The notes below the pieces were generated by a model, which was given only the letters and a program-made list of their open reading frames with translations, did not search any database and had not been told where the DNA came from. The translations under genes were made by a program, and so were the position numbers. Of a stretch of 64,000 nt of DNA, positions 304 to 19,474 are shown piece after piece. Numbering within the stretch: position 1 is the first letter of the stretch; every line of letters starts with the position of its first letter. This stretch comes from Salinisphaera shabanensis E1L3A (GTDB taxonomy: Bacteria > Pseudomonadota > Gammaproteobacteria > Nevskiales > Salinisphaeraceae), in contig NZ_AFNV02000002.1 in assembly GCF_000215955.2 (NCBI RefSeq), positions 1-64,000 on the forward strand, written 5' to 3'.

Positions 304-1314
304 CTACTTCGCCTTGAGATCCCGCCAGATCTGATGCACTTCGTGGAGCGGACTGGCCGGGTTCCAGCGCGCTTTCACGTTTTCGGCCCGCATATGATCG
401 AACTCGGCCAGGAACGGGCCCAGATCGGTAACCGCCTGTTCGACCGCGGCCCAGCGCTCGATAAACTCCGGGGCATCCAGCGTTCGTTCATCGGCCGCCA
501 CCTCGTCGAGCAGGCTATAGCCCTCGGCGGTCCAGCGATTGGCGGTGGGATCCGTGAGCAGATCAGCGCGGGTGAAGCGCGTACGCGGCTTGTCTTGCTT
601 CAGGAACCGGGTCGCGTACTCGTGGATGCCGGCCTGCTCCGCCGCGCCGATCGGCAGGCCCAGGTCGCGCGCCACCCGGGCGAGCTGCGCCTGTGGATCG
701 GCCATCAGCCGGTCGAAGTCGACGACGGTACGGAGACAGCCCGCGGTGCGGTGAAAATACGGCACCACGTTGACCAGCCATTCCATATCCGACCAGACCT
801 GACGACCGCGCTGCGGATTGATCTGGCCGCGCGAGCGAGCCACGCTCAGGGGATTGCGCAGCGCGATGACATAGCGCACGTCCAGATCCAGGGCGTTGTG
901 GATGCCTTCCCAGAACGGCATCGTGCGCAGGGTTCGCGAATACTTGTAGCCCCACAGCGGCGTGGCGCCGAAACGCGCGCCGAGGGTGGCGATTGCGCGC
1001 GCCTGGATGGCTTTCATGCGCGGCGTGTCGAATTCGGCGTCATCGAGCAGGCGTACGCTGTGTCCACGGATGCCCAGCGCCCGCTTGAGGCGTTTGCTGA
1101 TCGCCAGCACATCGTTGTCTTCGAAGAAGCCGGTCGGGTTCTTGCCGCCCGGCCGACGCAGCTTGTCGCCCAGATCCACGCCGAGCGCGGCCAGCCCGCG
1201 CGTGATTGCGCTGGTACCGCTGCGGCCCGCGCCGAGTACCGCGATCACGGTGGAGCGATTCGGATCCGCCGCGGCCACGACGGTGTCGGTACGGGCAGCC
1301 GTCTCAGACGTCAC
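304..1314 (-). CDS. Sulfotransferase family protein
   Basis: Predicted PAPS-dependent sulfotransferase of about 336 residues. The 5'-phosphosulfate-binding loop is visible near residues 28-35 (GAGRSGTS), and the 3'-phosphate-binding region is seen as YVIALRNPLSVARS near the middle. I chose the GTG at 1314 because GAGGAAATTC precedes it; the open frame runs to 1434 but would overlap the upstream gene by 131 bp. With this start the overlap with the 2OG oxygenase gene is 11 bp, so the two are probably translationally coupled. It is the last gene of the leftward lipid operon, next to two glycosyltransferases, which suggests that a glycan or lipid headgroup is sulfated. The acceptor is unknown. 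Confidence 0.75.
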   Translation of the reverse strand: MTSETAARTDTVVAAADPNRSTVIAVLGAGRSGTSAITRGLAALGVDLGDKLRRPGGKNPTGFFEDNDVLAISKRLKRALGIRGHSVRLLDDAEFDTPRMKAIQARAIATLGARFGATPLWGYKYSRTLRTMPFWEGIHNALDLDVRYVIALRNPLSVARSRGQINPQRGRQVWSDMEWLVNVVPYFHRTAGCLRTVVDFDRLMADPQAQLARVARDLGLPIGAAEQAGIHEYATRFLKQDKPRTRFTRADLLTDPTANRWTAEGYSLLDEVAADERTLDAPEFIERWAAVEQAVTDLGPFLAEFDHMRAENVKARWNPASPLHEVHQIWRDLKAK

Positions 1315-2026
1315 GAATTTCCTCGCCCTTGAGGCGACCCTTGATCCGGCGCACGGCCGCGCGCACGCGGTCGTTGATGACCACGATGAAGACCTTGCGG
1401 TGCATGCCTTCCGGACAGGTGATCTCGCGCACACCGTGCCAGGACTTGGCCTGGCGCTGGAACAGCAGGCTGTAGTTGCCCATGCTCTCGCCCTGGTAGG
1501 CGTCGGGAAAATCCTCGAACTCCGGGGCGGACTTGCGATCGAACTTGCCGTGATCGTCGAGGATCACGGTATCCCCGCCCCAACTCACATCCCAGTTTTC
1601 GGGCGAACTGAAATAGAAGATATGCGACCCGAGCTTGCGCTGGGCATCGCAGTGCGGCGACACCGACGCCCCACGGGGCGCGTAGTGCCAGTGAAAATTC
1701 AGCTTGAACAGGCCCCGGCCGAACATGCGCTTGATGAAGTCGTGGTAGCGCTTGCCGCGCAGTTCGGCGATGAATTCGTGCCAGGCCGGGTCCAGATCGA
1801 CATCGTCGCGGTATTCCAGCGCATAGCGATCGTGGGCCTTCTGGCCGTGCGAGCGTTGCATGCCGAAGGTCGGCGTCATCTGATCGGTGCTGGGCATATG
1901 CCCAAGCAGACGCTCATAGCCGGCGTCGGTCAGCAGGCCGGCCGGATTGATCCACGGATAGGGATCGGTCTGCTGGAAGCGTTTCGCTTCGATGGCTTCC
2001 AGGCGCTTGTAGTCGAGAAATTCCAT
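1304..2026 (-). CDS. 2-oxoglutarate/Fe(II)-dependent oxygenase
   Basis: About 240 residues with the facial triad of the prolyl-4-hydroxylase-like 2OG oxygenases: H125-C-D127 (in SPHCDAQ), distal H197 (SWHGVREI), and R210 that would bind 2-oxoglutarate. Members hydroxylate proteins, small molecules or lipids. The substrate is not evident; the position between an ELM1-type glycosyltransferase and a sulfotransferase suggests tailoring of the same glycan or lipid. The ATG at 2026 avoids overlap with the upstream gene, but its Shine-Dalgarno-like AAGGA is 13 bp away. A GTG 9 bp earlier or the ATG at 2065 are alternatives. There is no signal peptide, so it acts in the cytoplasm. Confidence 0.8.
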   Translation of the reverse strand: MEFLDYKRLEAIEAKRFQQTDPYPWINPAGLLTDAGYERLLGHMPSTDQMTPTFGMQRSHGQKAHDRYALEYRDDVDLDPAWHEFIAELRGKRYHDFIKRMFGRGLFKLNFHWHYAPRGASVSPHCDAQRKLGSHIFYFSSPENWDVSWGGDTVILDDHGKFDRKSAPEFEDFPDAYQGESMGNYSLLFQRQAKSWHGVREITCPEGMHRKVFIVVINDRVRAAVRRIKGRLKGEEIRDV

Positions 2027-2043
2027 GGCGAACACGATGTCCT

Positions 2044-3174
2044 TCAGGAAGAATGATTGGAGCACGGCGAATCGTTGCGCGATCGCCGATCGCCGGCGGA
2101 CGGCGACACCGCCGTTTGCATCAACGCGCGGATCCGCGCCACGGTGCGGCCCATGTCGTCGGGTACCCGGCCGCGGGGGCTGTCGCTGCCGACCAGGCCG
2201 CGTTCGACGAGCCCGCGATGAAACGCCGCGAAATCACGCCGCGGCTTGACCGCGCCCCAGTAGATTAAACCGCGCCCGATGCGTTGTGCGAGTGCCGTCT
2301 GCGCCCCCCGCGCCCATCCCGTCGGCTGCGCACGCGGCTGCCAGTCGAACAGCTCCACCGGACGACCGGTCGCACAGGCCTCGGCCGGCAGCGAGGCGCT
2401 GTCGGCGGTCACGATGAAACGATCGGCGAGCGCGAGAAAAGCCGGATAGGGATTGTCGGCGTCGTCGGCCTGCCATGCATAGCGGTACGACGGCCCACGG
2501 ATCGCCTGCCACAGCGCCTGGGCGGCATCGGCGCGGGTCCGTTTGCTGGTGGTCACCAGCAGGCTGCCGCTGTGGCGCTCGGCGACGTCGACCGCTTGCT
2601 GGGCCAGCTTTCGGGCGGTGGCCGGGTCGAGACGATAGCTGGAACTGTCGCCGCCGACGAGTACTGCGATCCACGGTCGCGGCAAGTCCGCAAGACGCGG
2701 GCGCCAGCGTTGGGCGGCACGCTCCAGACGCGCCTGATCGAGCACGTTCAACGGCAGCGTGTTGTGCAGCACGTTGGGGGCATCGGGCAGCCGAAACTGC
2801 GGCAGGGTCACGATCAGATCGAAATGATGCAGCGGCGCCTGCGCATGCAGCAGATGTACCAGGCGCGTATGGCCGCCCGACTGGGCCTTGATCCAGCGTG
2901 CCACCGGCGCCGAACGCCGCGAAGCGGCAATGACGAGATCGGGCCACGGCGGCGTCAACGGGTCGGAGCGTTCCCGATCCACGGTGCGCACGCTGGGACC
3001 GAGCAGCGCGCTGGGTACATGGTTGAGCCGGTTGTAGCGCAGCTGCAGGGTCTCGAACGGCCAGCCGAGTGCCTCGGCCAGCGCGCACATCTGGGCATTA
3101 CCGCCGGCGCCTTCGCCCAGCAGCACCCACACGCGCGGGGCCGACGCGTCGTCAGACACGCGCACATCAGCCAC
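2044..3174 (-). CDS. ELM1-like (mitochondrial fission ELM1 family) GT-B protein
   Basis: About 376 residues resembling the bacterial family named after plant ELM1, which has a GT-B-like fold. Visible landmarks are an N-terminal VWVLLGEGAGGNAQ, PPWPDLVIAASRRSAPVARW, a VLVGGDSSSYRLD segment, and a C-terminal FIVTADSASLPAEACATGRPV that looks like a nucleotide-sugar/phosphate site. No catalytic activity has been firmly assigned to the family as far as I know. A homologous domain forms the C-terminal half of the upstream gene, so this is a tandem duplication. Start GTG 3174 overlaps the upstream stop by 8 bp; GTG 3165 is also possible. Probable role: sugar transfer to the sphingolipid or LPS made by this operon (inference). 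Confidence 0.65.
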   Translation of the reverse strand: MADVRVSDDASAPRVWVLLGEGAGGNAQMCALAEALGWPFETLQLRYNRLNHVPSALLGPSVRTVDRERSDPLTPPWPDLVIAASRRSAPVARWIKAQSGGHTRLVHLLHAQAPLHHFDLIVTLPQFRLPDAPNVLHNTLPLNVLDQARLERAAQRWRPRLADLPRPWIAVLVGGDSSSYRLDPATARKLAQQAVDVAERHSGSLLVTTSKRTRADAAQALWQAIRGPSYRYAWQADDADNPYPAFLALADRFIVTADSASLPAEACATGRPVELFDWQPRAQPTGWARGAQTALAQRIGRGLIYWGAVKPRRDFAAFHRGLVERGLVGSDSPRGRVPDDMGRTVARIRALMQTAVSPSAGDRRSRNDSPCSNHSS

Positions 3175-5593
3175 GGCGAACGTCGGGAGCCAGGCGCGCG
3201 CGAATCTCGCCTGCGAGCAGTTCGAGTTCGTTCCACGGCTGCGGCTGCCAGGTCTCCAGCACACCGGCGAAAACCCGTGCCAGACCCTGCGCCTCGAGCG
3301 CGCCGTGCAGCGCGGGCATATCCCGTCGCGGCAGGAATATCCGCTGTTCGATCAGGCGCGCGCTCAGATACTGCAGGCCCTGCTGGGGGCGGCGCGAGCC
3401 ACGGGCGTTGTAGCGATCGGTCTGCGACTGGGTATGCACCCAGTCGGCAATACGCTGGCGCGCAGAGGGCGCGCGTTCGGGCAGCGGCAGTATATAGACG
3501 GGCTTGCCGGTGGCCACGGCTTCGGCAAGCATCGATTCGCTCTCACCGGTCACGACCAGAATATCGGCATGGGCCAGATAACCCAGGAACGGGTTATCGG
3601 CATCTGACGCCGCCCGCCAGGGCTCGAAAATGACACCCCCATCAGCGCCCCGGTCAGCGCTCTGGGCGAGGGTGCGGGTGACCGCTTCGCCGGTACGCCG
3701 GCTGGTGAGCACCGCCAGCGTGCCTCCCGCTGTGCGGGTGGCGCCGTGGACGTCGTCGAGCATCCGCGTCGCGTGCTCGGCGTCCAGGCGATGCTGCGCG
3801 CTGGTACCGCCGACAAGCCAGACAACGCGCGGCGTGGCGGCATCCTTGCCGAACACCTGCGGCCAGCGCGCGCCCGCCTCGGCCATGCGATCAGCGCCGA
3901 CCTTGCTCGGCGGCAGCACCGTTTGCAGGTGCTGCGGATGTGGGGTGAGGCCAAAGTGCGGGCAGTCGATCGCCAGATCCTGTGTCTCGCCGACCGGCCC
4001 GCCACGGCGCCCCATCAGGATGACTCGGGTATTACCCTGGTTCTGGTCCCGCACCCAGCGGGCCACCAGGCCCGGCAGCCAGCCCGAAGCGATGATCAGA
4101 TCCGGCCACGGCGGGCGGATGGTGTCCGACAGCCCGTGCGCGCCCACCGGCAGGCGTGCGCGCAGCGCGGCGAGCAACGTGCGCGCCGGCGCGTGGGGAA
4201 TCTCGCGCGTTTCGTAATCCCAGCCCAGGGCGTCGGCGATGCCGAGCGCCTGGCTGCGATGGCCCGTCTTGTGATGCTGAAGCACCCAGGTCGTCGGCGG
4301 CACGCGCAACAGCGCCCCGCCCGACCAGTGAGCCGCCTGCGCGCCATCCCTGCGGCGCTTGCGATGCACCACCAGATGCCAGTGGCGGTCCGGAAAACGC
4401 TGACCGGCGGCCGCGAGCTGCGCATACCACCAGTGCGGGTCGGCCGGGCACAGGCGCGTTCGATCACTGCCCAGCGTCACGCTCACCACCAGCGCACGCG
4501 TCGCGCGGGCGAACAGCCGGTCCAGCAGCCATGGAATATCCAGGTCGGGCAGTTGCTCGAGCCCGTCCGCGGCGACTACATCCACGCTGTCCCGGTTTGG
4601 ATCGCGACCGCTTTCCTGCAGTGGCGTCGCCGTGTCGATACGCTCCACGCTCAAGCCGCACTGGTCGGCCAGCGTGCGCAGGGTCGCGGCCGAGGCGAAG
4701 CCGCAGTAGTACAACGATTGCGCCTCGGCGTCCTGGGCGAGTTCGCGAAACGCCTCGAGATCCGGCGTGAATTGCCGCCGGCGCTCATCGCTGACCGTGG
4801 CGGCATCGGCAAACTGCGGCGTCGGGTCCTCGGCATGAAACAGCTGGAAGCCGGCGGCATCCGCCTCCGCTTCGATGTTGAGCCACAGATCGCTGGCCAC
4901 ATTGGCCCGATACACATAGTCGCCGGGCGTCGGCCGCCACGGCTGGGTATGAATCGTGGTGTAGTGCACCAGATGCGAGGTGACCGGGGCATACTCCTCG
5001 TCGCGGGCGTTCCAGCCGGCGTCGAGCTCGCCCCACAGGCCATCCACTGCACGCATGCGCGCTTCCAGTTCGCGGTTCTTGGTCGCCTTGGCGCTGTCCC
5101 AGTTCCACAGCGACGCCATGCGCGCGCAGTCGATGAGCATGACCGAGGTATCGCGATCGTTGATCGACAGCACGCCGTGATCGCCCATGGCCGTGTCGAA
5201 CAACAGCGCCGGATCCTTCAGATAGATCTGATCGGCATCGTTGTAGATCGCCCGACCCTCACGCCCGGCCAGCTCCGGAATCGCGAAACGGTAGTTGGTG
5301 AAGCCGGTCAGCCACAGGCGGCGCTCGAAACCCGCGAAGTCCTTCATCAGATGGATATCGTAGCGGCGCGCCGGATCGCGTAGGCGCTCGATCGACCACA
5401 CGAACGCCCGCTCCGCACGGAACTGGGCCGATTCCGTACCCAGATAGATCCGCACCGGCGGCTTGTCGCTGGGCGTGACACCGGCCTTTGGCGCCAGCGT
5501 GATGCAGATGGTGCCGACCTGTGCCGCGCTTGGACGACGATTGTCGTCGCCGGCCAGAAACGAGGCCAGTACACGTTGCGATCGAACGGCCAT
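3167..5593 (-). CDS. Two-domain protein: GT-A-like glycosyltransferase fused to ELM1-like domain
   Basis: An 808-residue protein with two recognisable parts. Residues about 45-260 resemble a GT-A (GT8-like) glycosyltransferase, with the metal-binding motif YNDADQIYL (D119-A-D121). After a linker around 290-420 that looks like a remnant methyltransferase or Rossmann segment (VDVVAADGLEQLPD), residues about 432-808 are an ELM1-like GT-B domain (TTWVLQHHKTGHRSQ; VTGESESMLAEAVATGKPV). The C-terminal half is homologous to the next gene downstream. Two transferase folds on one chain would allow two consecutive sugar additions. Membership in the lipid operon points to a glycolipid, but the sugar and acceptor are unknown. 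The middle assignment is weak. Confidence 0.65.
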   Translation of the reverse strand: MAVRSQRVLASFLAGDDNRRPSAAQVGTICITLAPKAGVTPSDKPPVRIYLGTESAQFRAERAFVWSIERLRDPARRYDIHLMKDFAGFERRLWLTGFTNYRFAIPELAGREGRAIYNDADQIYLKDPALLFDTAMGDHGVLSINDRDTSVMLIDCARMASLWNWDSAKATKNRELEARMRAVDGLWGELDAGWNARDEEYAPVTSHLVHYTTIHTQPWRPTPGDYVYRANVASDLWLNIEAEADAAGFQLFHAEDPTPQFADAATVSDERRRQFTPDLEAFRELAQDAEAQSLYYCGFASAATLRTLADQCGLSVERIDTATPLQESGRDPNRDSVDVVAADGLEQLPDLDIPWLLDRLFARATRALVVSVTLGSDRTRLCPADPHWWYAQLAAAGQRFPDRHWHLVVHRKRRRDGAQAAHWSGGALLRVPPTTWVLQHHKTGHRSQALGIADALGWDYETREIPHAPARTLLAALRARLPVGAHGLSDTIRPPWPDLIIASGWLPGLVARWVRDQNQGNTRVILMGRRGGPVGETQDLAIDCPHFGLTPHPQHLQTVLPPSKVGADRMAEAGARWPQVFGKDAATPRVVWLVGGTSAQHRLDAEHATRMLDDVHGATRTAGGTLAVLTSRRTGEAVTRTLAQSADRGADGGVIFEPWRAASDADNPFLGYLAHADILVVTGESESMLAEAVATGKPVYILPLPERAPSARQRIADWVHTQSQTDRYNARGSRRPQQGLQYLSARLIEQRIFLPRRDMPALHGALEAQGLARVFAGVLETWQPQPWNELELLAGEIRARLAPDVRRG

Positions 5594-5674
5594 GGACTAA
5601 CGACTCCCCGGGATCGCGGCCCCTGGGGGCGCGATGATGGAAAAGATAACTGGAACCGACGACAACATCGCGGC

Positions 5675-6619
5675 TCAGCGCGCCTGAAGACGCTTGTAAA
5701 CCGCCTTCGGCCAGCGGCGCTTGAGACACAGCCACTGATCCGGACGATCGCGGATCCATTGCTCGAACAGGCGATTCAGCTGGCCGGTCATGTCCTGTAC
5801 CCGCGCCTGCCGATCGGCGGCATCCGCACGGGCGCGGATCGGCGCGAACAGTTTGACCCGATAACGCGCACCAGGCAGACGCTCGGCGAGCACAGGCACC
5901 AGGTCGCAGTCATAGCGCAGCGCCAGCCGCGCCGGTGCGGTATTGGTCATCGCCGGCTCGTCGAAGAACGGCAGCGATTCGCCCGCGTCCATGCGCGTGT
6001 CGGCGGTCAGGCCGATCGACTGCCCCTGATCGAGCGCGCGCATCAGCACGCGGATACCGCCATCACGCGACACCAGTGGCCCACCGAAGGCACGACGCAT
6101 CGCGCCCAGCTTGCGGTCGACCAGCGGATTCTGCTCGGGCGCATAGATCACCGGAAGCGTGACCCCATAATGCGGGCCGATCAGCGGGGTCAGCTGCCAG
6201 GCCCCCAGATGCGCGGTGACGAACACGCTGCGCTTGTCCGGGGTGGGCATGACCGCGCCCGGCTCCAGGGTGAATTCGATCCGTCGTTCGCGCTCGCGCC
6301 AGATCTGTTTCAGCGACGCCAGCTCCGCGATCGCCACGCCCAGATGACGATAGGAGTCGCGCATCAACTCCTCGAGCCGCGTGTCCGGCGTCTGCGGAAA
6401 AGCGACCATCAGATTGGCCCGGACCTTGTCGGCGCGCGGTGTATACGGACCGAACAGGCCGAATACGAACGCGGCAAACCGCATCGACAAACGGATCGGC
6501 AGGCGCTTGAACAACTCGATCAGGCCGCCGATGACGATATATTCGACCCACCACACCAGTCGCTGGGGCAGTCGTACCGCCTTCTGCAGGCGCTGGGGAA
6601 GAAAATAATACCGAGCCAT
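5675..6619 (-). CDS. LpxL/HtrB-family acyltransferase with atypical H-X4-Q motif
   Basis: A 314-residue member of the lysophospholipid/lipid A acyltransferase family: a hydrophobic anchor around residues 21-35 (LVWWVEYIVIGGLIELF), then a conserved core. In LpxL/LpxM the catalytic dyad is H-X4-D/E; here the segment reads TAHLGAWQ, so H137 is kept but residue 142 is Gln (codon CAG). Family members transfer acyl chains from acyl-ACP to lipid A or other lipids on the inner face of the inner membrane. The substitution may mean altered chemistry, a different acceptor, or loss of activity. The location in a sphingolipid operon with its own ACP suggests O-acylation of a sphingolipid as an alternative to lipid A. 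Confidence 0.75.
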   Translation of the reverse strand: MARYYFLPQRLQKAVRLPQRLVWWVEYIVIGGLIELFKRLPIRLSMRFAAFVFGLFGPYTPRADKVRANLMVAFPQTPDTRLEELMRDSYRHLGVAIAELASLKQIWRERERRIEFTLEPGAVMPTPDKRSVFVTAHLGAWQLTPLIGPHYGVTLPVIYAPEQNPLVDRKLGAMRRAFGGPLVSRDGGIRVLMRALDQGQSIGLTADTRMDAGESLPFFDEPAMTNTAPARLALRYDCDLVPVLAERLPGARYRVKLFAPIRARADAADRQARVQDMTGQLNRLFEQWIRDRPDQWLCLKRRWPKAVYKRLQAR

Positions 6620-6707: not shown

Positions 6708-7484
6708 TCAGTGCCCCTGGCCGGCCAGCACCGTCTCGCGATAGCGCTGTTCCCAGGCGCGTTGATTGCGCATCGCGTCCTTGAAATAGGCCGTGCGCCG
6801 CAGCACCGAGATCATTGCACGCGAAACCGCGCGCCCGGCGGGCCCCATGGGCCGCTCGATATCGAACAACAGTACCGCCCGCTCTTCGCTGGTTTCGTTC
6901 CAGACTTCGTGCGGATAGGTATCGTCGAAGAAGAACATTTCGCCTTCGCCCCAGCGCATCGGCTGATCATCGATTTCGATCAGGCAACGTTCCGGGCCCT
7001 TGGGTACGCGCAGGCCCAGATGACAGCGCACCAGCCCCTTGGTGACGCCGCGATGACGCGGAATATGCTTGCCGGGTGCGAGAATGGAGAAGAAAGCATT
7101 GGAAATATTGGGCAGCTTCTCTAGCGCCGCCGCGGTTTTCGGGCACATCTCGCAGCCGAAATCCATGCGCGTGCCAAAGCCGTAGAGCATGAACGTCTTC
7201 CAGCGCGCATCGCTGGAGATACGCGCCTGATCCGGGCTAATTTCCTGAAAGCTCGGCAAGGCGGCGCGATGTTCGAGCAAGGCCTCGAGTTCGTCACGGA
7301 TCTCGGGCCACTGCACCCGCAGTTCTTCCGCCCAGGGGAACAAGGCGTTGTCGAGCACCGGCTGGTCCGGAATCTTCGACTGCTTGGAGAGAAACTCGAG
7401 GAGCGTGCCGCGAAAGAGTTTCTTGCCGAAACGCTTGACGAGTTTGCGGCGCTTGTCGCCGGATTGATCTGCTTGGGTCGCCAT
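6708..7484 (-). CDS. Aspartyl/asparaginyl beta-hydroxylase family (LpxO-like) dioxygenase
   Basis: About 258 residues of the Asp/Arg-hydroxylase family of Fe(II)/2OG dioxygenases, the family of LpxO, which 2-hydroxylates an acyl chain of lipid A. Seen: PRHRGVTKGLVRCHLGL (metal His 144, Arg 153) and FFDDTYPHEVWNETSEERAVLLFD (second His 192, 2OG-binding Arg 202). The ATG at 7484 was chosen because AAGG lies 7 bp upstream; upstream in-frame codons are not family-like. There is no obvious membrane anchor. In this operon the target could be the N-acyl chain of ceramide, since 2-hydroxy-acyl ceramides are common in sphingolipid-making bacteria, or lipid A. The choice is inference. Confidence 0.75.
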   Translation of the reverse strand: MATQADQSGDKRRKLVKRFGKKLFRGTLLEFLSKQSKIPDQPVLDNALFPWAEELRVQWPEIRDELEALLEHRAALPSFQEISPDQARISSDARWKTFMLYGFGTRMDFGCEMCPKTAAALEKLPNISNAFFSILAPGKHIPRHRGVTKGLVRCHLGLRVPKGPERCLIEIDDQPMRWGEGEMFFFDDTYPHEVWNETSEERAVLLFDIERPMGPAGRAVSRAMISVLRRTAYFKDAMRNQRAWEQRYRETVLAGQGH

Positions 7485-7528
7485 GAGATTGCCTTTCTGG
7501 AAAAGGGATGCTCGAAAAGTGATCGGGA

Positions 7529-9578: not shown

Positions 9579-9817
9579 GCGGCGACCTGCGCCAGCGCCT
9601 TGACCAGATCGTCCACGGTCTGCACGTCGGGCAGCAGATTCAGCGGAATCGCCATATCCAGCTGATCTTCCATGTCCATGACCATTTCCATGGTTTGCAT
9701 CGAATCCAGCCCCAGATCGTCGACAAGCAGACTGTCCGGCTCGATCGTCTTGCCGGCCGGCACATACGCCGCGAGCAGCGTACGCAGCTCGCCGTAGATA
9801 TCGTCGTAACTCGCCAT
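9575..9817 (-). CDS. Acyl carrier protein for sphingoid-base synthesis
   Basis: An 80-residue acidic ACP with the phosphopantetheine site D-L-G-L-D-S, Ser39. It is not the housekeeping AcpP, which sits in the fab cluster. Its stop overlaps the SPT start, so the two are co-translated, and it probably delivers the acyl-thioester used by SPT (or by the ceramide synthase) after loading by the acyl-ACP ligase of the same operon. This arrangement of SPT with a dedicated ACP and ligase is known from sphingolipid-producing Proteobacteria such as Caulobacter and Sphingomonas. Confidence 0.88.
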   Translation of the reverse strand: MASYDDIYGELRTLLAAYVPAGKTIEPDSLLVDDLGLDSMQTMEMVMDMEDQLDMAIPLNLLPDVQTVDDLVKALAQVAA

Positions 9818-9852
9818 TGAACTTGCCTCGTCGTTTTGCCTGCCGCTCTATT

Positions 9853-10853: not shown

Positions 10854-12606
10854 CCGCCGTGCTGCCCACATCCGCCGGGCGACGGCGCTCATGCACCCGC
10901 TCCTGCAGACGCGCAATATAGTCGCGACGCGCGCCAGCACGCGAGAGCTTGCCCGACGACGTCCGCGGCAGCGTATGCGGTGCCACTGCCTCGACCAGGC
11001 ACTCAACGCCGAATTCACGCCGGATCAGACCTTCCAGGCGCTTGATCAAAGCATTGCGTGCTTCGGCCTCGCGCGCCCGGCACTGCACGACCACGACGGC
11101 GGCATCCGAACCGACCGCCGACGGCGCGGCAAAGGCCAGTGCATCGCCCGGGCGCAGTTCCGGTTGCTGCTCGGCCAGCCATTCCAGATCCTGCGGCCAG
11201 ATATTGCGGCCGTTGACGATGATCAGATCCTTGGCACGACCAGTGATCACGATACGCCGGCCGATCCGATAACCCAGATCGCCGGTGTCCAGCCAACCGT
11301 CGTCGGAAAGCGATTTGCGCGTCTGCTCGGGGCTGCCGAAATAGCCCGACATCACGCTCGGCCCGCGCACCTTGATCGCACCGACGCGCCGATCGCCCAA
11401 CGGGCGACCCTCGCCGTCGAGAATCTCGAAGTCGTATTCCGGCAGGACCTCACCGCAATCGACAAAGGTATTGGTCCGTTCGACCTGCTGGGCATCGGCC
11501 GGCTCGGCAATCTGTTGGGTAGCGAGCTTCTCGGCGTCGACGGTGTCGATTTCCAGGCCGGTATCGAGCGGCGCGAAGCTGATCGCCAGCGAGCACTCGG
11601 CCATGCCGTAACAGGCCAGGAACGCGCGCGAATCGAAACCCGCCGGCGCCAGCGTCTCGGCGAACCGGTTGAGCGACGTCGGGCGGATGGTCTCGGCCCC
11701 GGCGCCGGCGATACGCCAGCTGCTCAGATCGAAATCGGTGGCGCCGTGACGGATACGGCGCGCGCACAGCTCGTAGCCGAACGACGGGCTGAAGGCGATG
11801 GTGCCGCGGTTGCGGCTGATCAGACTCAGCCACTGGCGCGGGCGCATGGCGAAATCGCGGGTCGCGAGATAGTCCACCGAGCGCTGCGAGGTGAGCGCCG
11901 CCAGCATGAAGCCGACCAGGCCCATGTCGTGGTAGAGCGGCAACCAGGACACCAGCCGATCGTCCTCACGCATCTGTACGCCCAGGCGCAGGATGCTGGT
12001 CAGGTTCTGCATGACCTGCGCCTGGGTGATGATCACGCCGCGCGGAAACTGGGTGCTGCCCGAGGTGAACTGCAGATAGGCGGTCGCGGACACCTCCGGC
12101 AAAGGCGGCAACGTATTGGCCTCGGGCAAGTCCTGGAGCGTCTCGAAACTACCGATATGGCGTAGGGGATGCCCCTCGGCGGCTTTTTCCAGGAATGCCA
12201 TGAAATCTTCGGGCGCGAACGCAGCCGCCGCATCGCAGCCGCCAAGCAGGCCGCTCAACTGGCGGATATATGCGTCGCGACTGCCCAGGCCCACGGTCAC
12301 GGGCAGCGGCACCGGCACCAGGCCCACGTACTGGCAAGCCCAGAAGCAATCCATGAAGCCCGGCACCGTATCCGCAACCAGCGCGACGCGATCGCCGGGT
12401 TCGAGTCCGAGACCGATCAGCCGGCGCGCGGTCGCCAGCGCCCGCGTGCGCAGTTCCCGATACGACAACGGCGCGACGAGATCACCCCGGCCGTTATAGA
12501 AATTGAACCCGGTCTCCCCTTGGGCTGCGTAATCCAGCGCATCCGCGAGCCTGGAAAAATCGCCGTGACGCATCGGTAGTCGATGCTGTGTGGGGGTTGG
12601 CATCAT
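10819..12606 (-). CDS. Fatty acyl-AMP ligase / acyl-ACP synthetase
   Basis: A 595-residue ANL-superfamily adenylating enzyme. Seen: the phosphate loop FTSGST at 180-185, here followed by QFPRG instead of the usual G-PKG; LPLYHDMGLVG; the YGMAE adenine site; GWLDTGDLGY; and a C-terminal LPRTSSGKLSR carrying the catalytic lysine. It most resembles the fatty acyl-AMP ligases that load ACPs rather than CoA. As first gene of the leftward operon with a dedicated ACP, it probably activates the fatty acid that SPT or the ceramide synthase uses. Two adjacent ATGs (12606, 12603) are possible starts; GGA lies just upstream. A divergent promoter region precedes it. Confidence 0.85.
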   Translation of the reverse strand: MMPTPTQHRLPMRHGDFSRLADALDYAAQGETGFNFYNGRGDLVAPLSYRELRTRALATARRLIGLGLEPGDRVALVADTVPGFMDCFWACQYVGLVPVPLPVTVGLGSRDAYIRQLSGLLGGCDAAAAFAPEDFMAFLEKAAEGHPLRHIGSFETLQDLPEANTLPPLPEVSATAYLQFTSGSTQFPRGVIITQAQVMQNLTSILRLGVQMREDDRLVSWLPLYHDMGLVGFMLAALTSQRSVDYLATRDFAMRPRQWLSLISRNRGTIAFSPSFGYELCARRIRHGATDFDLSSWRIAGAGAETIRPTSLNRFAETLAPAGFDSRAFLACYGMAECSLAISFAPLDTGLEIDTVDAEKLATQQIAEPADAQQVERTNTFVDCGEVLPEYDFEILDGEGRPLGDRRVGAIKVRGPSVMSGYFGSPEQTRKSLSDDGWLDTGDLGYRIGRRIVITGRAKDLIIVNGRNIWPQDLEWLAEQQPELRPGDALAFAAPSAVGSDAAVVVVQCRAREAEARNALIKRLEGLIRREFGVECLVEAVAPHTLPRTSSGKLSRAGARRDYIARLQERVHERRRPADVGSTADADHDSDRQAG

Positions 12607-13146: not shown

Positions 13147-14298
13147 ATGGCGATATCCGTGAAATCGGACAGGGAAATCAGCATTACCGCGGTCGACGAC
13201 CGCAAGGCTCGTGGGCGGTTCATCGACGTGCCCGCGCGTATATTTCGTGATGATAACGCCTGGCGTGCGCCGCTGCGCATCGAACGCCAGATGCATCTGT
13301 CGCCAAAACAGAATCCGGCGTTCGAGCATCTGGAATTCCAGGCCTGGCTGGCATGGCAGGACGGCGAATGCGTCGGCCGCATCAGCGCCCAGATCGATAG
13401 TCTGCGCAAGCCGATCCACGGTGACGATGTCGGTTATTTCGGCATGCTCGACGCGCCCGACGACACGGCCGTCTTCAGCGCCCTGGCCGAAACCGCGGAG
13501 AGCTGGCTGCGCGAACGCGGCATGCGCGCGGTGCACGGCCCGTTCAATCTGACCATCAACGAGGAATGCGGCCTGCTCGTCGATGGTTTCGACACCCCGC
13601 CGATGGTGATGATGGGGCATGCACGGCCCTACTACGCACAGCAACTGACGCGGCTGGGCTACGCCAAGGCAATCGATCTGCACGCGTACTGGATCAACCT
13701 CGATTTCGAGCATCCGCGCGTGATGCAGCGTCTGCTCGCGCGCTATGCAAAGCGTGTGACGGTACGGCCGATCAATGGTAAGAAGTTCGTCGAGGAGCTG
13801 GATATCATCCGCGACATGTTCAACGACGCCTGGGCCAACAACTGGGGGTTCGTGCCGCTCACCGAAGAAGAGTTCCGGGACATGGGCAAGACGCTCAAGC
13901 TGCTGCTGCCCAACGAGCTGGTCCAGATTGCCGAGGTCGACGGCAAGCCGGCGGCCTTCATCGTGGGCCTGCCCAACCTCAACGAAGCGGCGCGCGATCT
14001 CAACGGTCGTCTGTTCCCGGCCGGGCTGATGAAGCTGTTGTGGCGGCTCAAGGTCCGTTTTCCCGAGACCTCTCGCGTGCCGCTCATGGGCGTGCGCCAA
14101 CGCTACCAGGGCGGCCCGCTGGGCGCGGCCCTGGCCTATTGCGTAATCGGGGCGCTGCAGACCGAACTCTATGCGCGCGGGGCCCGCGGCTGTGAGCTGT
14201 CGTGGATTCTGGAGTCGAACAAGGGCATGCGCGATATCATCGAAAGCATCGGCGGCGATGTCTACAAGACCTACCGTATCTACGAAAAACCGCTGTGA
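13147..14298 (+). CDS. bcerS: Bacterial ceramide synthase (GNAT-superfamily sphingoid-base N-acyltransferase)
   Basis: A 383-residue protein of the large GNAT-fold family that includes the Caulobacter ceramide synthase bCerS, which joins an acyl group to the amine of the sphingoid base. Landmarks I recognise from the family are an early PARIFRDDNAWRAPL, the central GPFNLTINEECGLLVDGFDTPPMVMM, and the C-terminal GCELSWILESNKGMRDIIE-IGG followed by KTYRIYEK. It has no signal peptide or clear membrane segment. It starts the rightward operon and its stop overlaps the next start (GTGA). The assignment rests on remembered family features plus co-location with SPT, ACP and the acyl-ACP ligase; fold-only GNAT alternatives cannot be excluded. 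Confidence 0.82.
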   Translation: MAISVKSDREISITAVDDRKARGRFIDVPARIFRDDNAWRAPLRIERQMHLSPKQNPAFEHLEFQAWLAWQDGECVGRISAQIDSLRKPIHGDDVGYFGMLDAPDDTAVFSALAETAESWLRERGMRAVHGPFNLTINEECGLLVDGFDTPPMVMMGHARPYYAQQLTRLGYAKAIDLHAYWINLDFEHPRVMQRLLARYAKRVTVRPINGKKFVEELDIIRDMFNDAWANNWGFVPLTEEEFRDMGKTLKLLLPNELVQIAEVDGKPAAFIVGLPNLNEAARDLNGRLFPAGLMKLLWRLKVRFPETSRVPLMGVRQRYQGGPLGAALAYCVIGALQTELYARGARGCELSWILESNKGMRDIIESIGGDVYKTYRIYEKPL

Positions 14299-15254: not shown

Positions 15255-16310
15255 ATGCTGACCGTATCCGACCGCTATCTGCTGCGCGCGGTGTTCTGGC
15301 CCTGGCTCGCGGTGACTGCGGCGCTGGCCGCGATCTTCGCCAGTTACAGCGTGACGCGCTACCTGGCCGAAGCCGCCCAGGGCCAGCAGGCGATGCGCTT
15401 CGTCGCCGAGATGATCGGCTTGCGCGTGGTCGTGGCGCTCGAGGTACTGCTGCCGCTGGGTCTGTACCTGGGTATCATCATCGGTCTCGGCCGTCTCTAC
15501 GCAGACAGCGAGATGATTGCATTGCAGGCCGGCGGCCTCGGCCGGTCGCGCATGCTCCGGCCACTGCTGGCGTTCGCGCTGGTGGTGAGCGTGCTGGTCG
15601 CCGCACTGTCGCTGTACGGACGCCCCTGGGCCTACGGCAAGCTCTACGCCGTGGAAGTCGCCGTCGAAGCACGCCTGGACCTGAGCGCCATTACCCCGCG
15701 GCGGTTCTATACCAGCGACGATGCCGCCATCTACGCCAACAGCAAGTCCGATAACGGGCACCAGCTGAACGACGTATTCGCCCGTTTCATCGATGACGAG
15801 CGCCGCGTCGTCATACGCGCTGCCCATATGCGCCGCTCCACTGACGCCGATGGCGCGCCGACACTGGATTTTCGCGACGGTCATCTCTATCAGCTGGACA
15901 TGCAGGGCCCGAACGATCGGGTGGTCGGCTTCGGCAAGCTGCAGTGGCATCTGTCGCCGTCCAGCCGCGTGGTCGGCTACAAGCGCAAGGCCGCATCCAG
16001 CGCTTCGCTGCTTCAGATGACCGATCGCGACGATATCGCCGAACGCCAGTGGCGTTATTCCCGGCCGGTCGCGGTGATCTTTCTGGCGTTGCTGGGCATC
16101 GTGTTCGCGCGTTCGACGCCGCGCCGGGGGCGTGCCGGCAACATGGTCGCCGCCGCGGTGAGTTTCGCCTTGTACTACGGGCTGGCAAGCGTCGCGCGCA
16201 GCTGGGTGGAACAGGGTGTGGTGGCGATCATTCCAGGCGTTTACTGGGTCGACGCGCTGGTCGGCGCCATTGCCTGCGTTCTGCTGTTTCGTCGGCGCTC
16301 GAGCTACTGA
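15255..16310 (+). CDS. LptF-like (YjgP/YjgQ family) permease
   Basis: A 351-residue LptF/LptG-family permease. Layout: three N-terminal membrane helices (about 14-35, 55-80, 98-120), a periplasmic beta-jellyroll domain (about 130-265) and three C-terminal helices (about 268-345). The segment LEVLLPLGLYLGIIIGLGRLYADSEMIALQAGG matches the helix pair and coupling helix that contact LptB. Its stop TGA shares an A with the ATG of the next gene (lptG-like). In the Lpt system LptB2FG extracts lipid A from the inner membrane. Being inside the ceramide operon, this pair may move sphingolipid instead, or be the cell's ordinary LptFG. Only the rest of the genome can tell. Confidence 0.82.
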   Translation: MLTVSDRYLLRAVFWPWLAVTAALAAIFASYSVTRYLAEAAQGQQAMRFVAEMIGLRVVVALEVLLPLGLYLGIIIGLGRLYADSEMIALQAGGLGRSRMLRPLLAFALVVSVLVAALSLYGRPWAYGKLYAVEVAVEARLDLSAITPRRFYTSDDAAIYANSKSDNGHQLNDVFARFIDDERRVVIRAAHMRRSTDADGAPTLDFRDGHLYQLDMQGPNDRVVGFGKLQWHLSPSSRVVGYKRKAASSASLLQMTDRDDIAERQWRYSRPVAVIFLALLGIVFARSTPRRGRAGNMVAAAVSFALYYGLASVARSWVEQGVVAIIPGVYWVDALVGAIACVLLFRRRSSY

Positions 16311-17374
16311 TGCGCCTCTACGAACGCTATATCCACGCCGAACTGCTGCGCGCCTGGGTCGTGGTCAATCTCATGCTGCTCGGGTTGTTCGGCTTCTTTG
16401 ATCTGTCGGTGCAGCTGGACGACGTCGGCCAGGGCAACTACAGCACTTTCGACGCCGTGGCCTTCACGCTGCGCCAACTGCCGCAGCGGCTGGTCGAACT
16501 GACCCCGTTCGCGACCCTGCTCACCGTGGTCATTGCCCTGGGACTGATGGCCAGCCGCCACGAACTGGTCATCCTGCGCGGCGCCGGGCTGTCTCCGGCC
16601 CGTATCGCCGGCACCGTGTTCAAGGCCGGCGTGGCGCTGCTCGTGATCATGCTGTGTGTGCAATCATTCGTGGCGCCGCCGCTGCTGCAGCGAGCGCAAC
16701 AGATGCGCGCAAGCGCGATCACCGGCGGCAGCATCGCCGACGACGCCAGTTTCTGGCTACGCGCCCGCAACGGCGTCGTCCACATCGGCGCGCTGGAAAA
16801 TGCACGGGTACCGGTAGAGATCGAGATATTCGAGTTCGGCGCGGACGCGACCTTGACCCGTTATCTGCACGCCGCGCGCGCGGATACCCCCTTGTCCGGG
16901 CCCTGGCGGCTGCAGCAGGTGACGGTCAAAGGCTTCAACCCCCGCGGCGACACCACCGCGCAGCGCGCCACGCTGGCGTGGTCGCCCACCCTCTACGAGC
17001 GCCAGCTGGCGGTACTCGACCGGTCGCCCGAGAGCCTGTCGCCGCTGTCGCTGTATCGCTACAGCCGCTATCTGCAGACCCATGATCAGGACGCTCAGCG
17101 TTTTCGCGTCGCGCTGTGGCAAAAGCTCGCCATGCCGCTCACCGCGATTGCCATGCTGCTGCTGGCCATGCCGCTGGTCTTCGCTAATCCCCGCGGTGCC
17201 AATTTCGGGCTCCGGGTCGCGGTCGCCGCCGGCATCGGCCTGCTCGCTTATGCATCGATGCAGGCGGTCGGCAATCTCGCGTTCGTGCTGGGGCTGTCGG
17301 CGCCGCTGTGCATGCTCACCCCAGGGTTGCTGCTATGCGTGGTCGCGGTGCTCTGGCTCAGACGCGTGGGATGA
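16310..17374 (+). CDS. LptG-like (YjgP/YjgQ family) permease
   Basis: A 354-residue partner of the preceding LptF-like protein. It opens with the LptG-type RLYERYIHAELLRAW helix and LDDVGQGNY loop, then the RHELVILRGAG coupling region, a periplasmic domain (about 130-260) and three C-terminal helices starting KLAMPLTAIAMLLLAMPLVF. The start ATG overlaps the previous stop by 1 bp, so the two are made together. The open frame extends further upstream only in the shadow of the lptF-like gene. LptB, the likely ATPase partner, is encoded near 54 kb in this window; no ATPase gene accompanies the pair here. Confidence 0.82.
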   Translation: MRLYERYIHAELLRAWVVVNLMLLGLFGFFDLSVQLDDVGQGNYSTFDAVAFTLRQLPQRLVELTPFATLLTVVIALGLMASRHELVILRGAGLSPARIAGTVFKAGVALLVIMLCVQSFVAPPLLQRAQQMRASAITGGSIADDASFWLRARNGVVHIGALENARVPVEIEIFEFGADATLTRYLHAARADTPLSGPWRLQQVTVKGFNPRGDTTAQRATLAWSPTLYERQLAVLDRSPESLSPLSLYRYSRYLQTHDQDAQRFRVALWQKLAMPLTAIAMLLLAMPLVFANPRGANFGLRVAVAAGIGLLAYASMQAVGNLAFVLGLSAPLCMLTPGLLLCVVAVLWLRRVG

Positions 17375-17522
17375 GGCATGCGCGTGGGGCCATCCGGGGC
17401 ACATGCGTTACCATCGGCGCCTTGACCCCCCCGACCCGCAAGCTGCGGCCCATGCTCGACGCCCGCTCTCCCCGCGCCGATGACCGGCGCCCGTCGACGA
17501 CATCTGCTGTCGTGTACCGCTC

Positions 17523-18512
17523 GTGACCGGCGCGCGGCAACCTGCGGCCGTGGCGCAGCGGTCGCTCAAGCTGGGCATCCTCTACAACGCCCACAGCGGC
17601 CGACATCGCAAACGCTGGGCCCAGCCCGACCTCGGCGACAGCGTACCCGCGATTCGTGCCAAAACCGCCGAAGAAATCCGCGCCGGACTGACCGAACTCG
17701 CCCGCGAGGGCGTCGAGCTGCTCGCCATCGCGGGCGGTGACGGCACTGTTCAGTCGGTGCTGAGCCATGTGATGCTCGGCGATCTGTTCGAGCGCCCGCC
17801 TCTGCTGGCGCTCGTGCCCACCGGCAGCACCAACATGACCGGCAACGACGTCGGCACGGTGCGGGTCAAGCGCGAGGGATGGCAGAAACTGCAGGCCTGG
17901 GCCGACAACCCGGTCGATATCGAACAACGCGTGGTCGCCCGCGACGTGCTCAAGATAGACCCCGGCGGCGATGCCCCCGCGTTCTGCGGCATGTTCTTCG
18001 GCGCCGGCGCGATCTACAACGCGGTCGAACATACGCAACGCAATCTGCACCAGTACGGTCTGCGCGGCGACGTGGGCCCCGGGGTGGCATTCACGCGCTT
18101 CGTCAAGGCCGTTGCGACCGGCGATCGACGCTATTTCTCACCGGTGACGGTGCGCTTGCGCGATGACCTGGGCAACGATCTCGACGAAGCGAGCATTCTG
18201 CTGTTCGCCAGCACGCTCGACACCCTCGTGCTCCGGCTACATCCGTTCTGGGGCGAGGAGCCGGGTCCGGTCGCCTGGACCACGGTGGCCGAATCGGCGG
18301 AGAAATTTCTGCGCCGCATGCCGGCCGTCTGCCGTGGGCGACGGCGGCGCTGGATGACGCCCGAGAAAGGCTATCGCAGCCACAATACCCAGCGCCTGGA
18401 GCTGCTGTTCGACGGCGGTTACATCGTCGACGGCGAATTCTTCAGCGCCCGCGTGGCCGACGGGCCGGTCGTACTCAGTTCGGCGGGCAAGGCCTCGTTC
18501 CTGAATCTTTGA
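17523..18512 (+). CDS. Diacylglycerol-kinase-fold lipid kinase, candidate ceramide/sphingoid kinase
   Basis: A 329-residue member of the DAGK/sphingosine-kinase/YegS family. Seen: YNAHSGRHRK near 21-30 (phosphate-binding), the ATP-site GGDGT at 71-75, and VPTGSTNMTGNDV, which replaces the usual P-GT-NDFA. The family phosphorylates lipid hydroxyls with ATP at the inner face of the inner membrane. Given its place in the ceramide operon, ceramide (to ceramide-1-phosphate) or a sphingoid base is the most likely substrate, as for the CpgB kinase of Caulobacter. The start is a GTG; upstream 148 bp hold no better start. Two bases separate it from the next gene. Confidence 0.75.
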   Translation: MTGARQPAAVAQRSLKLGILYNAHSGRHRKRWAQPDLGDSVPAIRAKTAEEIRAGLTELAREGVELLAIAGGDGTVQSVLSHVMLGDLFERPPLLALVPTGSTNMTGNDVGTVRVKREGWQKLQAWADNPVDIEQRVVARDVLKIDPGGDAPAFCGMFFGAGAIYNAVEHTQRNLHQYGLRGDVGPGVAFTRFVKAVATGDRRYFSPVTVRLRDDLGNDLDEASILLFASTLDTLVLRLHPFWGEEPGPVAWTTVAESAEKFLRRMPAVCRGRRRRWMTPEKGYRSHNTQRLELLFDGGYIVDGEFFSARVADGPVVLSSAGKASFLNL

Positions 18513-18514
18513 AC

Positions 18515-19474
18515 ATGCCAGCCGCACAGCGCGACCGCCGGCTGCATCAACTGCACATCATCGCCGGACCATGCAGCACGCCACAAACGCCGCAGCTCGA
18601 ACCGCTGCTGGCCGTGATCAGTGCGCGCTTCGGCGACGCCCTCGCCGCCGTCATCTACTACGGCTCCTGCCTGCGCAGCGGCGATCCCTACGATGGCCTG
18701 ATCGATTTCTATGTCGTGGTCGACGACTACGGGCGCCCCGGCCAGAGCCGTATCGGCGCCCTCGCCAACCGGCTCGTGCCGCCCAATGTGTATTACGCCG
18801 AACGCGCGACCGGGCACGGCATACTGCGCTGCAAATACGCGGTGCTCAGCGTCGAGCAACTGGAGGCCGGCGTCGGCAGGCGTGCGTTCCTGTCGTCGAT
18901 CTGGGGGCGTTTCGCGCAGCCCGTCGCGATCGTCCACGCACGCAGCGCGCACGACCACGACCGTGTACGCGCCGCCTGTGGCGAGGCCGTTGTCACCCTG
19001 CTGGAAAAGGCCCTGCCCGCCGTTGCACCGCCCGCCTCGGCGGCCGACACCTTCGCCGCCGCGCTCACACTGAGCTACGCCAGCGAGCTGCGGGTCGAGC
19101 GCGCCGGGCGCAGCGTTGCGCTGGTCGCCGCCGATGCGGCGGAATACAGCCACCGGCTGCGGTGCGCGGCGCCGTTGCTGTCGTTCGAGGTCAATCTCGA
19201 CGATCCGCAGGCGGTACGGTATCGGCCCTCGGCACAGCGCCGACAGCTGGCGAAGATCAGTTGGCCGCTACGGCGCGGCGCCGGCAAGCTGGTGTCGGTC
19301 GCGCGGCTCGTCAAGGCCTGTTTCACGTTCAGCGACGCGGTCGACTATGCCGCCTTCAAGATCGAACGCCATACCGGGGTTGCAATCGAGGTGACCGATC
19401 GCCTGCGGCGCCACCCGCTCGTGTTCGGCTGGGTCGCACTCTGGCGTGTCTACCGCCAGCGGCTGCTGCGCTGA
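18515..19474 (+). CDS. Tam41-like CTP:phosphatidate cytidylyltransferase family protein
   Basis: A 319-residue protein with the features of the Tam41/Mmp37 family, the soluble-type CDP-diacylglycerol synthase best known from mitochondria: YYGSCLRSG near 48-56 (the G-S of the nucleotidyltransferase fold), D64-F-Y-VVVDD (D70, D71), then NVYYAERATGHGILRCKYAVLSVEQL and SIWGRFAQPV, which parallel the Tam41 segments around its conserved Lys (here K107). Tam41 uses CTP and a phospho-lipid to give a CDP-lipid. Directly after a lipid kinase in a ceramide operon, it may turn ceramide-1-phosphate into a CDP-ceramide-like intermediate. That product is my inference. The ATG is preferred to the TTG 6 bp earlier. 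It is the last gene of the operon. Confidence 0.7.
   Translation: MPAAQRDRRLHQLHIIAGPCSTPQTPQLEPLLAVISARFGDALAAVIYYGSCLRSGDPYDGLIDFYVVVDDYGRPGQSRIGALANRLVPPNVYYAERATGHGILRCKYAVLSVEQLEAGVGRRAFLSSIWGRFAQPVAIVHARSAHDHDRVRAACGEAVVTLLEKALPAVAPPASAADTFAAALTLSYASELRVERAGRSVALVAADAAEYSHRLRCAAPLLSFEVNLDDPQAVRYRPSAQRRQLAKISWPLRRGAGKLVSVARLVKACFTFSDAVDYAAFKIERHTGVAIEVTDRLRRHPLVFGWVALWRVYRQRLLR

Follow-up and report, generated by a model that had tools for sequence, protein, structure and literature searches.

A putative sphingolipid synthesis, tailoring and export island beside lpxC in Salinisphaera shabanensis E1L3A

Gene content and the predicted ceramide core

The stretch of DNA analysed here (the window) comprises 64,000 nucleotides of Salinisphaera shabanensis E1L3A (assembly GCF_000215955.2, contig NZ_AFNV02000002.1, positions 1-64,000, forward strand). 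Its first 19.5 kb or so (304-19474) carry an island of two divergent operons that we consider, with good confidence, to be a block for sphingolipid synthesis, tailoring and export, in which a Caulobacter-type ceramide pathway would have been rebuilt for an O-acylated, hydroxylated, glycosylated and sulfated sphingolipid. On the minus strand lie, in order, genes for an AasR-like fatty acyl-AMP/acyl carrier protein (ACP) ligase, a CerR-like reductase, an ACP, a serine palmitoyltransferase (SPT), a short-chain dehydrogenase/reductase (SDR), an OlsC/LpxO-like hydroxylase, an LpxL-like acyltransferase, an 808-aa glycosyltransferase (GT) fusion, an ELM1-family protein, an iron- and 2-oxoglutarate-dependent (Fe/2OG) oxygenase and a sulfotransferase. 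On the plus strand, genes for a bCerS-like GNAT, a CofC-like protein, two LptF/LptG permeases, a lipid kinase and a Tam41-like protein are followed by the adjoining lpxC and ftsZ. These last two names, like dciA, secA and the label MsbA-like for an ATP-binding cassette (ABC) exporter found next to dciA-secA, are ones we take to be correct; the ABC domains of the exporter were matched by domain profiles. Gene content, families and synteny are direct observations: the SPT, ACP, ligase, CerR-like and bCerS-like genes that a first-pass annotation had placed with further genes in two divergent operons are all present, its family assignments hold or are likely on the strength of profile, motif or fold, and to its list we add the SDR gene (7529-8314) and the CofC-like gene (14286-15137).

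The left edge of the window is the end of a contig and cuts a GT4 glycosyltransferase gene, of which only the 3' end remains (1..240, plus strand; 70% identity with the C-terminal end of the GT4 in relative G013). Another contig of the same genome, C41, ends in a GT4 gene that lacks its C-terminus, beside the ABC exporter, dciA and secA. The island is therefore judged to extend past the left edge onto C41, the two being separate, unjoined contigs.

For comparison, we used 101 sources, namely the window, 20 relative loci and 80 named loci (G and L numbers designate genomes and loci). The relative loci were fetched for 20 of 23 strong bCerS matches, G047, G054 and G059 being left out, and L013 (G010), limited by its contig, was excluded from the nine full family loci referred to below.

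By family, all five Caulobacter-type ceramide genes (spt, acp, aasR, cerR and cerS) lie together, cerR with an interrupted frame in this assembly. The SPT (8379..9578, minus strand, with its own ATG start) scores 612.6 bits against NF047599 (cut-off 500), compared with 311.1 for BioF and 306.8 for glycine C-acetyltransferase, and among solved chains it is closest to the SPT 2x8u (432 bits), followed by KBL (220 bits) and by BioF or BioF/KBL chains (186 bits at most), so that the question raised with the first-pass annotation, whether the protein would score better to KBL or BioF, is answered in the negative. SPT, BioF and KBL belong to one enzyme superfamily, and the weaker matches to BioF, KBL and ALAS could be taken to indicate a BioF/KBL-type synthase for another product, but with a score above the SPT cut-off, these differences in bits and ceramide genes as neighbours, we regard this as scarcely credible. 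The dedicated, AcpR-like ACP (9575..9817, minus strand; PF00550, 38 bits) lies between CerR and SPT in all nine full family loci, and the AasR-like ligase (10819..12606, minus strand) scores 795.6 bits against NF006624 (cut-off 600). The bCerS-like N-acyltransferase (13147..14298, plus strand), a weak match to the GNAT profile, is 54% and 56% identical in the best segment to the Azotobacter copies L046 and L082, and its best named match is that of Salinisphaera hydrothermalis C41B8 (68%).

The CerR-like NAD-dependent epimerase/reductase gene (9856..10820, minus strand) is interrupted in this assembly: its Epimerase matches fall in two different frames, at 10512-10820 and 9856-10473, on either side of a palindrome of G/C homopolymers (about 10473..10512; runs of 8, 13 and 13). 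A 16-mer from this palindrome occurs nowhere else in the genome and once per strand at that site. The tract could possibly be a slippage site that subjects CerR to phase variation, but the palindromic run is confined to a single site and CerR is uninterrupted in all nine relatives, in six of them within a longer frame continuing into SPT. For these reasons the break is probably an assembly fault, and CerR is probably intact in the living cell.

Presence and absence of the island as one block

A bCerS gene was found in eight of 13 genomes of the genus, in two of the three others of the family and in 14 of 44 of the order (one of these 14 being weak). Tailoring and core genes keep the same order in all nine full family loci, and the island is therefore far beyond what chance would produce; the tailoring proteins of these loci are 37-83% identical to those of the window, with their motifs intact. 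Same-order loci from other families share the core with the island, but not this tailoring set.

Beside Tam41, lpxC is found in the window and in G001, G004, G005, G007, G009, G010, G013, G014 and G016, and ABC-dciA-secA lies on the far side of the island in the six same-genus carriers fetched there (G001, G002, G004, G005, G007 and G013). A GT4 gene stands between the sulfotransferase and the ABC exporter in most carriers, G007 excepted. In all six same-genus or same-family genomes devoid of bCerS (G003, G006, G008, G011, G012 and G015), lpxC, dciA and secA are consecutive, with 1.3 kb separating dciA and secA in G015. This presence and absence is directly observed, and the island is a single removable block at the lpxC/dciA-secA site. 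At this one site, closely related Salinisphaera species thus have or lack the entire block, and their lipidomes are directly comparable.

Recent horizontal transfer into the species of the window, whose closest relatives by LpxC are island-free, was considered and rejected, the identity of the island broadly following that of LpxC. Over 55 pairs (CerS alone was used for pairs with G010), SPT+CerS+AasR identity broadly tracks LpxC identity; for the window and G004 the values are 82.7 for the island and 93.5 for LpxC. Vertical descent with repeated loss would fit better than recent transfer, the forks of the LpxC tree being weak.

Predicted tailoring, head group and export

The LpxL-like acyltransferase (5675..6619, minus strand; PF03279, 139.4 bits, cut-off 22.3) has HX4Q at the position of the HX4(D/E) motif of LpxL/LABLAT acyltransferases. 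The sequence is HLGAWQ in the window, and the last residue is Q in six of the nine relatives, T in one and E in two (G014 and G016). Canonical LpxL copies of the genus read HFTSLE, HTTSLE or HTTALE (for G014 and G016, a pattern search of the canonical copies found no HX4E), and LpxL-like copies beside bCerS in a Halieaceae metagenome-assembled genome (L052) and in Roseovarius (L101) read HVGAWQ. In a tree of 32 rows, from which the third, weak PF03279 copies (L156-L158) were left out, the island copies group with L052 and L101 at 96/96, apart from the canonical LpxL of the genus. The genome of the window contains two PF03279 genes, one within the island and one outside, nine other carriers scanned contain two or three, and each of the four island-free Salinisphaera genomes scanned contains exactly one. 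Since carriers have a canonical and an island copy and these island-free genomes one, the island copy would not be needed for lipid A.

Next to it lies the Asp/Asn-hydroxylase-type lipid hydroxylase (6708..7487, minus strand; PF05118, 174.7 bits), which stays below both NCBIfam cut-offs, with 218.7 bits for OlsC (450) and 126.1 for LpxO (500). This adjoining pair recalls the LpxL and LpxO of lipid A and the OlsC of ornithine lipids; it differs from them in its linkage to ceramide genes, in the HX4Q motif and separate clade of the acyltransferase and in the low scores of the hydroxylase. Just as the OlsC-like gene adjoins the LpxL-like gene in Salinisphaeraceae, LpxL-like genes flank an FA_hydroxylase gene in L052 and L101, and the comparison suggests that the LpxL-like enzyme O-acylates a hydroxylated ceramide. 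The SDR gene (minus strand; PF00106, 158.9 bits), directly downstream of SPT and present in all nine full family loci, was checked as an alternative 3-ketosphinganine reductase; its matches among solved structures are to generic SDRs (best 60 of 137 matches).

Further along the minus strand come the candidate glycan genes. For the ELM1-family protein ELM1a (2044..3201; PF06258, 209.5 bits), the predicted model (predicted local distance difference test, pLDDT, 89.2) has the galactolipid synthase MGD1 as top Foldseek match and resembles GT-B chains and UDP-GlcNAc 2-epimerases (Z up to 17.5, 279 aligned, 3.6 A). By this model ELM1a is a glycosyltransferase-fold protein; the GT-B fold is common to UDP-GlcNAc 2-epimerases, and the fold alone is no proof of activity. 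The 808-aa fusion (3167..5593; PF06258, 176.4 bits; pLDDT 80.9) is predicted to combine a GT8-like GT-A domain at about residues 44-250 (3tzt, Z 16.5, 187 aligned, 3.3 A), a middle part (about 250-430) barely covered in the fold matches, and a C-terminal ELM1 domain of GT-B/epimerase-like fold at about 430-805 (Z up to 17.7, 288 aligned, 4.8 A). Sequence searches of the PDB with ELM1 and the fusion gave weak matches only. Both the 2OG-Fe(II) oxygenase (1304..2029, minus strand; PF13640) and the Sulfotransfer_3-like sulfotransferase (304..1353, minus strand; PF13469) keep their motifs in all ten copies from the window and the nine relatives, respectively PHCD and GAGRSGTSA, in which we take GAGRSGTS to be a PAPS-loop-like, P-loop-like element.

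A search of 369 genomes of the class at E <= 1e-30 yielded the island-type sulfotransferase in 13, including two from Salinisphaera; among short loci from ten of the other 11, Fe/2OG and ELM1 genes stand alongside in one (G073). A Roseovarius-type sulfotransferase occurs in the fetched bCerS flanks of five of the 80 named loci (L053, L056, L065, L101 and L109), four times with ELM1. G014 and G016 (L008, L009 and L113) carry a second sulfotransferase, of Roseovarius type, adjoining the island's own.

Three genes on the plus strand would concern the head group. The lipid kinase (17523..18512; DAGK_cat, 41.4 bits), a CpgB-like ceramide kinase candidate, has GGDGT invariant in 21 of 21 copies, and its family profile matches YegS, DgkB and AGK in the PDB. 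The profile of the Tam41-like nucleotidyltransferase (CC_1161-like; 18509..19474) matches the solved Tam41 6ig2 at 1.8e-5. The CofC/MobA-like nucleotidyltransferase (CC_1153-like; PF12804, 45.4 bits) reaches 17.4 bits against the CofC model (cut-off 105), and such a gene accompanies bCerS in 68 of the 80 named loci. By family, order and PDB profile, homologs of the CPG2 genes CC_1160, CC_1161 and CC_1153 are thus present, and are presumably orthologs.

Two further CPG2 genes, CC_1159 of the CDP-alcohol transferase family and CC_1152 of the nucleoside triphosphate (NTP) transferase family (PMC11324152), were sought with Azotobacter copies as queries in the window's own genome and five other carriers. 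The CDP-alcohol transferase had no match in the own genome; three of the six carriers searched had none and three had weak local matches. The second NTP transferase had only weak matches in the own genome (best 7.7e-8 over 65 residues) and matches of up to 37% identity in the other carriers searched. Neither family was found in the nine full family loci. Weak matches to both queries lie about 5 kb apart in G004 (L173, G004:C1), G005 (L172, G005:C17) and G013 (L174, G013:C12), in a row with an epimerase and genes that we take to resemble phosphoenolpyruvate mutase and phosphonopyruvate decarboxylase; this row is probably a phosphonolipid route. With both signature genes missing, we infer that the head group of the product differs from the Caulobacter CPG2 head group; a phosphate-based one would still be expected, given the retained kinase, Tam41-like and CofC-like genes. 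The same three genes could be read to mean that the island makes only the known ceramide phosphoglycerate (CPG) lipid, most tailoring genes being relics or of minor importance, and Zymomonas is predicted, in the text cited, to make CPG without CC_1159 (PMC11324152). We nevertheless hold this to be very improbable, as the conserved tailoring proteins with their intact motifs are unlike relics.

Regarding export, the island contains second copies of the LptF/LptG-type permeases, LptF2 (15255..16310, plus strand; PF03739, 215.1 bits) and LptG2 (16307..17374, plus strand; 198.5 bits on a longer frame, 15944-17374). The dedicated pair that the first-pass annotation had counted in the island is real in the window and not a general part of it: it recurs in only one of ten other island loci (G004), and PF03739 genes number four in the own genome and in G004 and two in each of the 13 other relatives counted, eight of which are carriers. 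These counts make LptF2G2 optional, and in the other carriers export presumably relies on the ordinary Lpt machine or some other route. In G016 a 456-codon open frame (L009, 15366-17010), which we presume from its motif to be a cytochrome P450, lies between CofC and the kinase.

The first-pass annotation had also thought so full a set unusual in a gammaproteobacterium that makes lipid A, and this did not hold: contiguous ceramide/CPG2 clusters are described in Azotobacter vinelandii and Pseudomonas luteola (PMC11324152), and a bCerS relative is encoded in at least 579 of at least 592 pattern matches in GTDB genomes. As far as the cited texts go, the core layout has already been described in Caulobacter, Azotobacter and P. 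luteola (PMC11324152), and the core pathway, the ceramide kinase, second Lpt genes and gammaproteobacterial clusters are established (PMC11324152, PMC11087976, PMC10331486, PMC11334938, PMC9386255). Compared by family and description, the island shares with the Caulobacter crescentus cluster CC_1168-CC_1152 its SPT, ACP, AasR, CerR, CerS, kinase CC_1160, CC_1161, CC_1153, second LptF/LptG pair and a flippase candidate (PMC11324152). It differs in having no convincing CC_1159- or CC_1152-type homolog in the genome of the window or in the nine full family loci, in its added LpxL-like, OlsC-like, SDR, GT, Fe/2OG and sulfotransferase genes, in an LptF2G2 pair that is optional, and in the fusion of CerR and SPT in six of nine relatives. 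The Azotobacter vinelandii/Pseudomonas clusters (L082, L046, L034, L097 and L098) have the same divergent layout, AasR-CerR-ACP-SPT // CerS-CofC-LptF2-LptG2-CpgB-Tam41, except that L098 has no CpgB match. Several of them carry OlsC-like and ELM1 genes as the island does, and L098 has a GT-ELM1 fusion; unlike the island, L082 and L098 retain a CDP-alcohol transferase and a second NTP transferase, and the fetched flanks of these clusters gave no match for the LpxL-like, Fe/2OG, sulfotransferase or SDR genes.

The alphaproteobacterium Roseovarius autotrophicus (L101) has a sphingolipid cluster richly equipped with tailoring genes. Like the island, it combines SPT, bCerS, CpgB, Tam41 and ABC genes with three ELM1, two LpxL-like, a hydroxylase, an Fe/2OG and a sulfotransferase gene; it differs in gene order, in a sulfotransferase that matches Sulfotransfer_1 best, in an FA_hydroxylase instead of the OlsC type and in having no SDR match. 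In the 80 named loci, many of which are short and which include L105 (S. hydrothermalis, cut before the sulfotransferase), the tailoring profiles of the window, counted as one best family per open frame, matched as follows: OlsC in 14, ELM1a in nine, the GT fusion in nine, LpxL in four, SDR in two, Fe/2OG in one and the sulfotransferase in none. Among the loci compared, the full tailoring set is confined to Salinisphaeraceae. Judged by title and the start of the abstract, none of the matches listed from the open-licence literature describes such a tailoring cluster or a CerR-SPT fusion. What is new here is the tailoring module as one block and, in relatives, a CerR-SPT frame with a nested ACP, the core itself being known.

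The genes could also belong to two pathways in one block, in which the core, kinase, Tam41 and CofC genes make a ceramide phosphoglycerate-type lipid and the GTs, Fe/2OG enzyme and sulfotransferase decorate lipopolysaccharide (LPS) or another surface glycan, the vicinity of lpxC reflecting a general envelope function. The block does lie beside lpxC in most carriers, LpxL- and LpxO-type enzymes are lipid A enzymes by origin, and the sulfotransferase-Fe/2OG-ELM1 trio of G073 has no sphingolipid genes in the 20 kb read around it. Yet the tailoring genes continue from SPT in one operon-like row, the whole block is absent from all six island-free relatives, which retain lpxC and, in the five scanned, a PF03279 gene, and other sphingolipid clusters have recruited similar genes. 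We thus consider two separate pathways unlikely, though more plausible than a CPG-only product.

A single sphingolipid pathway is preferred because the SPT exceeds its curated cut-off and is closest to solved SPTs, because the gene order is conserved and the site is empty in island-free relatives, and because the PF03279 counts, the separate LpxL clade, the Roseovarius set and the GT folds of the ELM1 and fusion models agree with it. The proposal of the first-pass annotation, a complex sphingolipid for whose synthesis, decoration and export the extra genes would be responsible, accordingly remains the best reading, except for its dedicated LptFG pair.

Several observations count against this reading. 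The acidic residue of HX4(D/E) is absent from the LpxL-like enzyme in the window and seven of nine relatives, and its activity is not assured; L101 and L052 carry a long-branch warning in the LpxL tree, and the island-free G015 has two PF03279 genes. Four assignments score below their Pfam gathering thresholds: bCerS-like GNAT (19.3 bits, threshold 20.7), Tam41-like (PF09139, 18.1, threshold 24), Fe/2OG (24.9, threshold 27) and sulfotransferase (23.4, threshold 27). CerR is not a single open frame in this assembly, no lpxC was found in the fetched right flank of G002 and no ABC-dciA-secA in the fetched left flank of G014. Finally, the G073 trio (L171, 5897-9041, with a GT4) has no sphingolipid gene in 20 of the 30 kb of its contig; such a trio may be able to stand alone, which counts against an exclusive role in sphingolipids, and the three enzymes may serve a different glycolipid.

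The reactions, their order and the product we infer as follows. By homology, AasR would charge the ACP, SPT would condense the acyl-ACP with serine, bCerS would attach a second chain, and the ketone would be reduced by CerR, which in several sister species looks joined to SPT. The CpgB-like kinase and the Tam41-like and CofC-like enzymes would add an anionic phosphate-based head group other than CPG2. The LpxL-like enzyme may O-acylate a ceramide hydroxyl and the OlsC-like enzyme hydroxylate an acyl chain; sugars may come from the GT-A/ELM1 fusion, from ELM1a and, in loci that have it, from GT4, and the Fe/2OG enzyme and the sulfotransferase may finish the glycan. The ABC exporter would flip the lipid, and export would proceed through the dedicated LptF2G2 in two species and presumably through the ordinary Lpt machine in the others; the cited text states the route of sphingolipid export to be unknown (PMC11324152). 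Should this scheme prove correct, LpxL-type enzymes would act on sphingolipids as well, there would be bacterial sphingolipids with sulfate and three chains that resemble lipid A, and their export would not require a dedicated LptFG pair. Sulfate-bearing 1-deoxyceramides have been described from the Black Sea (PMC11334938).

The CerR-SPT frame and its nested ACP in sister species

In six of the nine full family loci (G001, G002, G005, G007, G009 and G013), the CerR and SPT matches are directly observed to share one open frame of 796-889 codons, as they do in L105, the named S. hydrothermalis copy of G005; over the 101 sources, an SPT match above 300 bits occurs in 46 open frames, of which these seven alone also hold CerR. 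The three frames CerR, ACP and SPT are separate in G004, G014 and G016, and ACP and SPT are also separate in the window. From CerR through the end of SPT the six fused cases contain no stop, and once the CerR match has ended no in-frame ATG or GTG occurs before the FDKF motif of SPT; G002 has two TTG codons directly after CerR, and CTG codons are the sole start-like codons near SPT. In the window, G004, G014 and G016, the SPT ATG stands three codons upstream of the FDKF position.

In the fused loci, the ACP match lies between those of CerR and SPT in another frame; the ACP has a start ATG and a stop of its own and is shifted by one base against the CerR-SPT frame (L005, L006, L007, L010, L011 and L012; in L011, for example, the nested ACP region is 9523-9894 within the open frame 8634-11099). 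A three-domain CerR-ACP-SPT fusion was considered and rejected, the ACP being in a different frame from CerR and SPT in all six cases. Over the ACP, the CerR-SPT frame has no stops in any of the six and the third frame has three to ten. Random synonymous recodings of the ACP leave the CerR-SPT frame open in 0.1 to 7.8% per genome, percentages which are not independent, given the kinship of the six genomes. In the window, too, one of the other frames runs through the ACP with 0 stops; in L004, L008 and L009 both other frames are closed.

From these frames, CerR and SPT look to be encoded as one polypeptide in several sister species, although rare CTG starts, frameshifting or cleavage may still yield a separate SPT. 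In Caulobacter, CerR is placed in the periplasm and SPT and bCerS in the cytoplasm; the periplasm has no free NADH, the source of reducing power is left open, and a rival model with ketone reduction first is described (PMC11087976, in the text cited). The Rossmann motif lies six residues past the nearest start-type codon in all six fused cases, so that, if translation begins at this codon, no room is visible for an ordinary signal peptide. With such a fusion, the two enzymes of this genus would share a compartment, contrary to the periplasmic CerR model; this natural fusion thus predicts that CerR and SPT act in one compartment in Salinisphaera, and makes the open dispute over compartments testable. 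More tentatively, and with rather less than even confidence, we propose from the sequences that in most Salinisphaera carriers CerR and SPT would form a single protein, whose linker region would also encode the ACP supplying SPT, that the ketone would be reduced in the cytoplasm, at SPT, instead of in the periplasm, and that the product would be a lipid-A-like sphingolipid with a third, hydroxylated chain from the HX4Q LpxL clade and a sulfated oligosaccharide, located in the outer leaflet beside LPS.

Elsewhere in the window, an ordinary RNase P RNA gene lies at 37759-38112 on the minus strand (RF00010, 337 bits).

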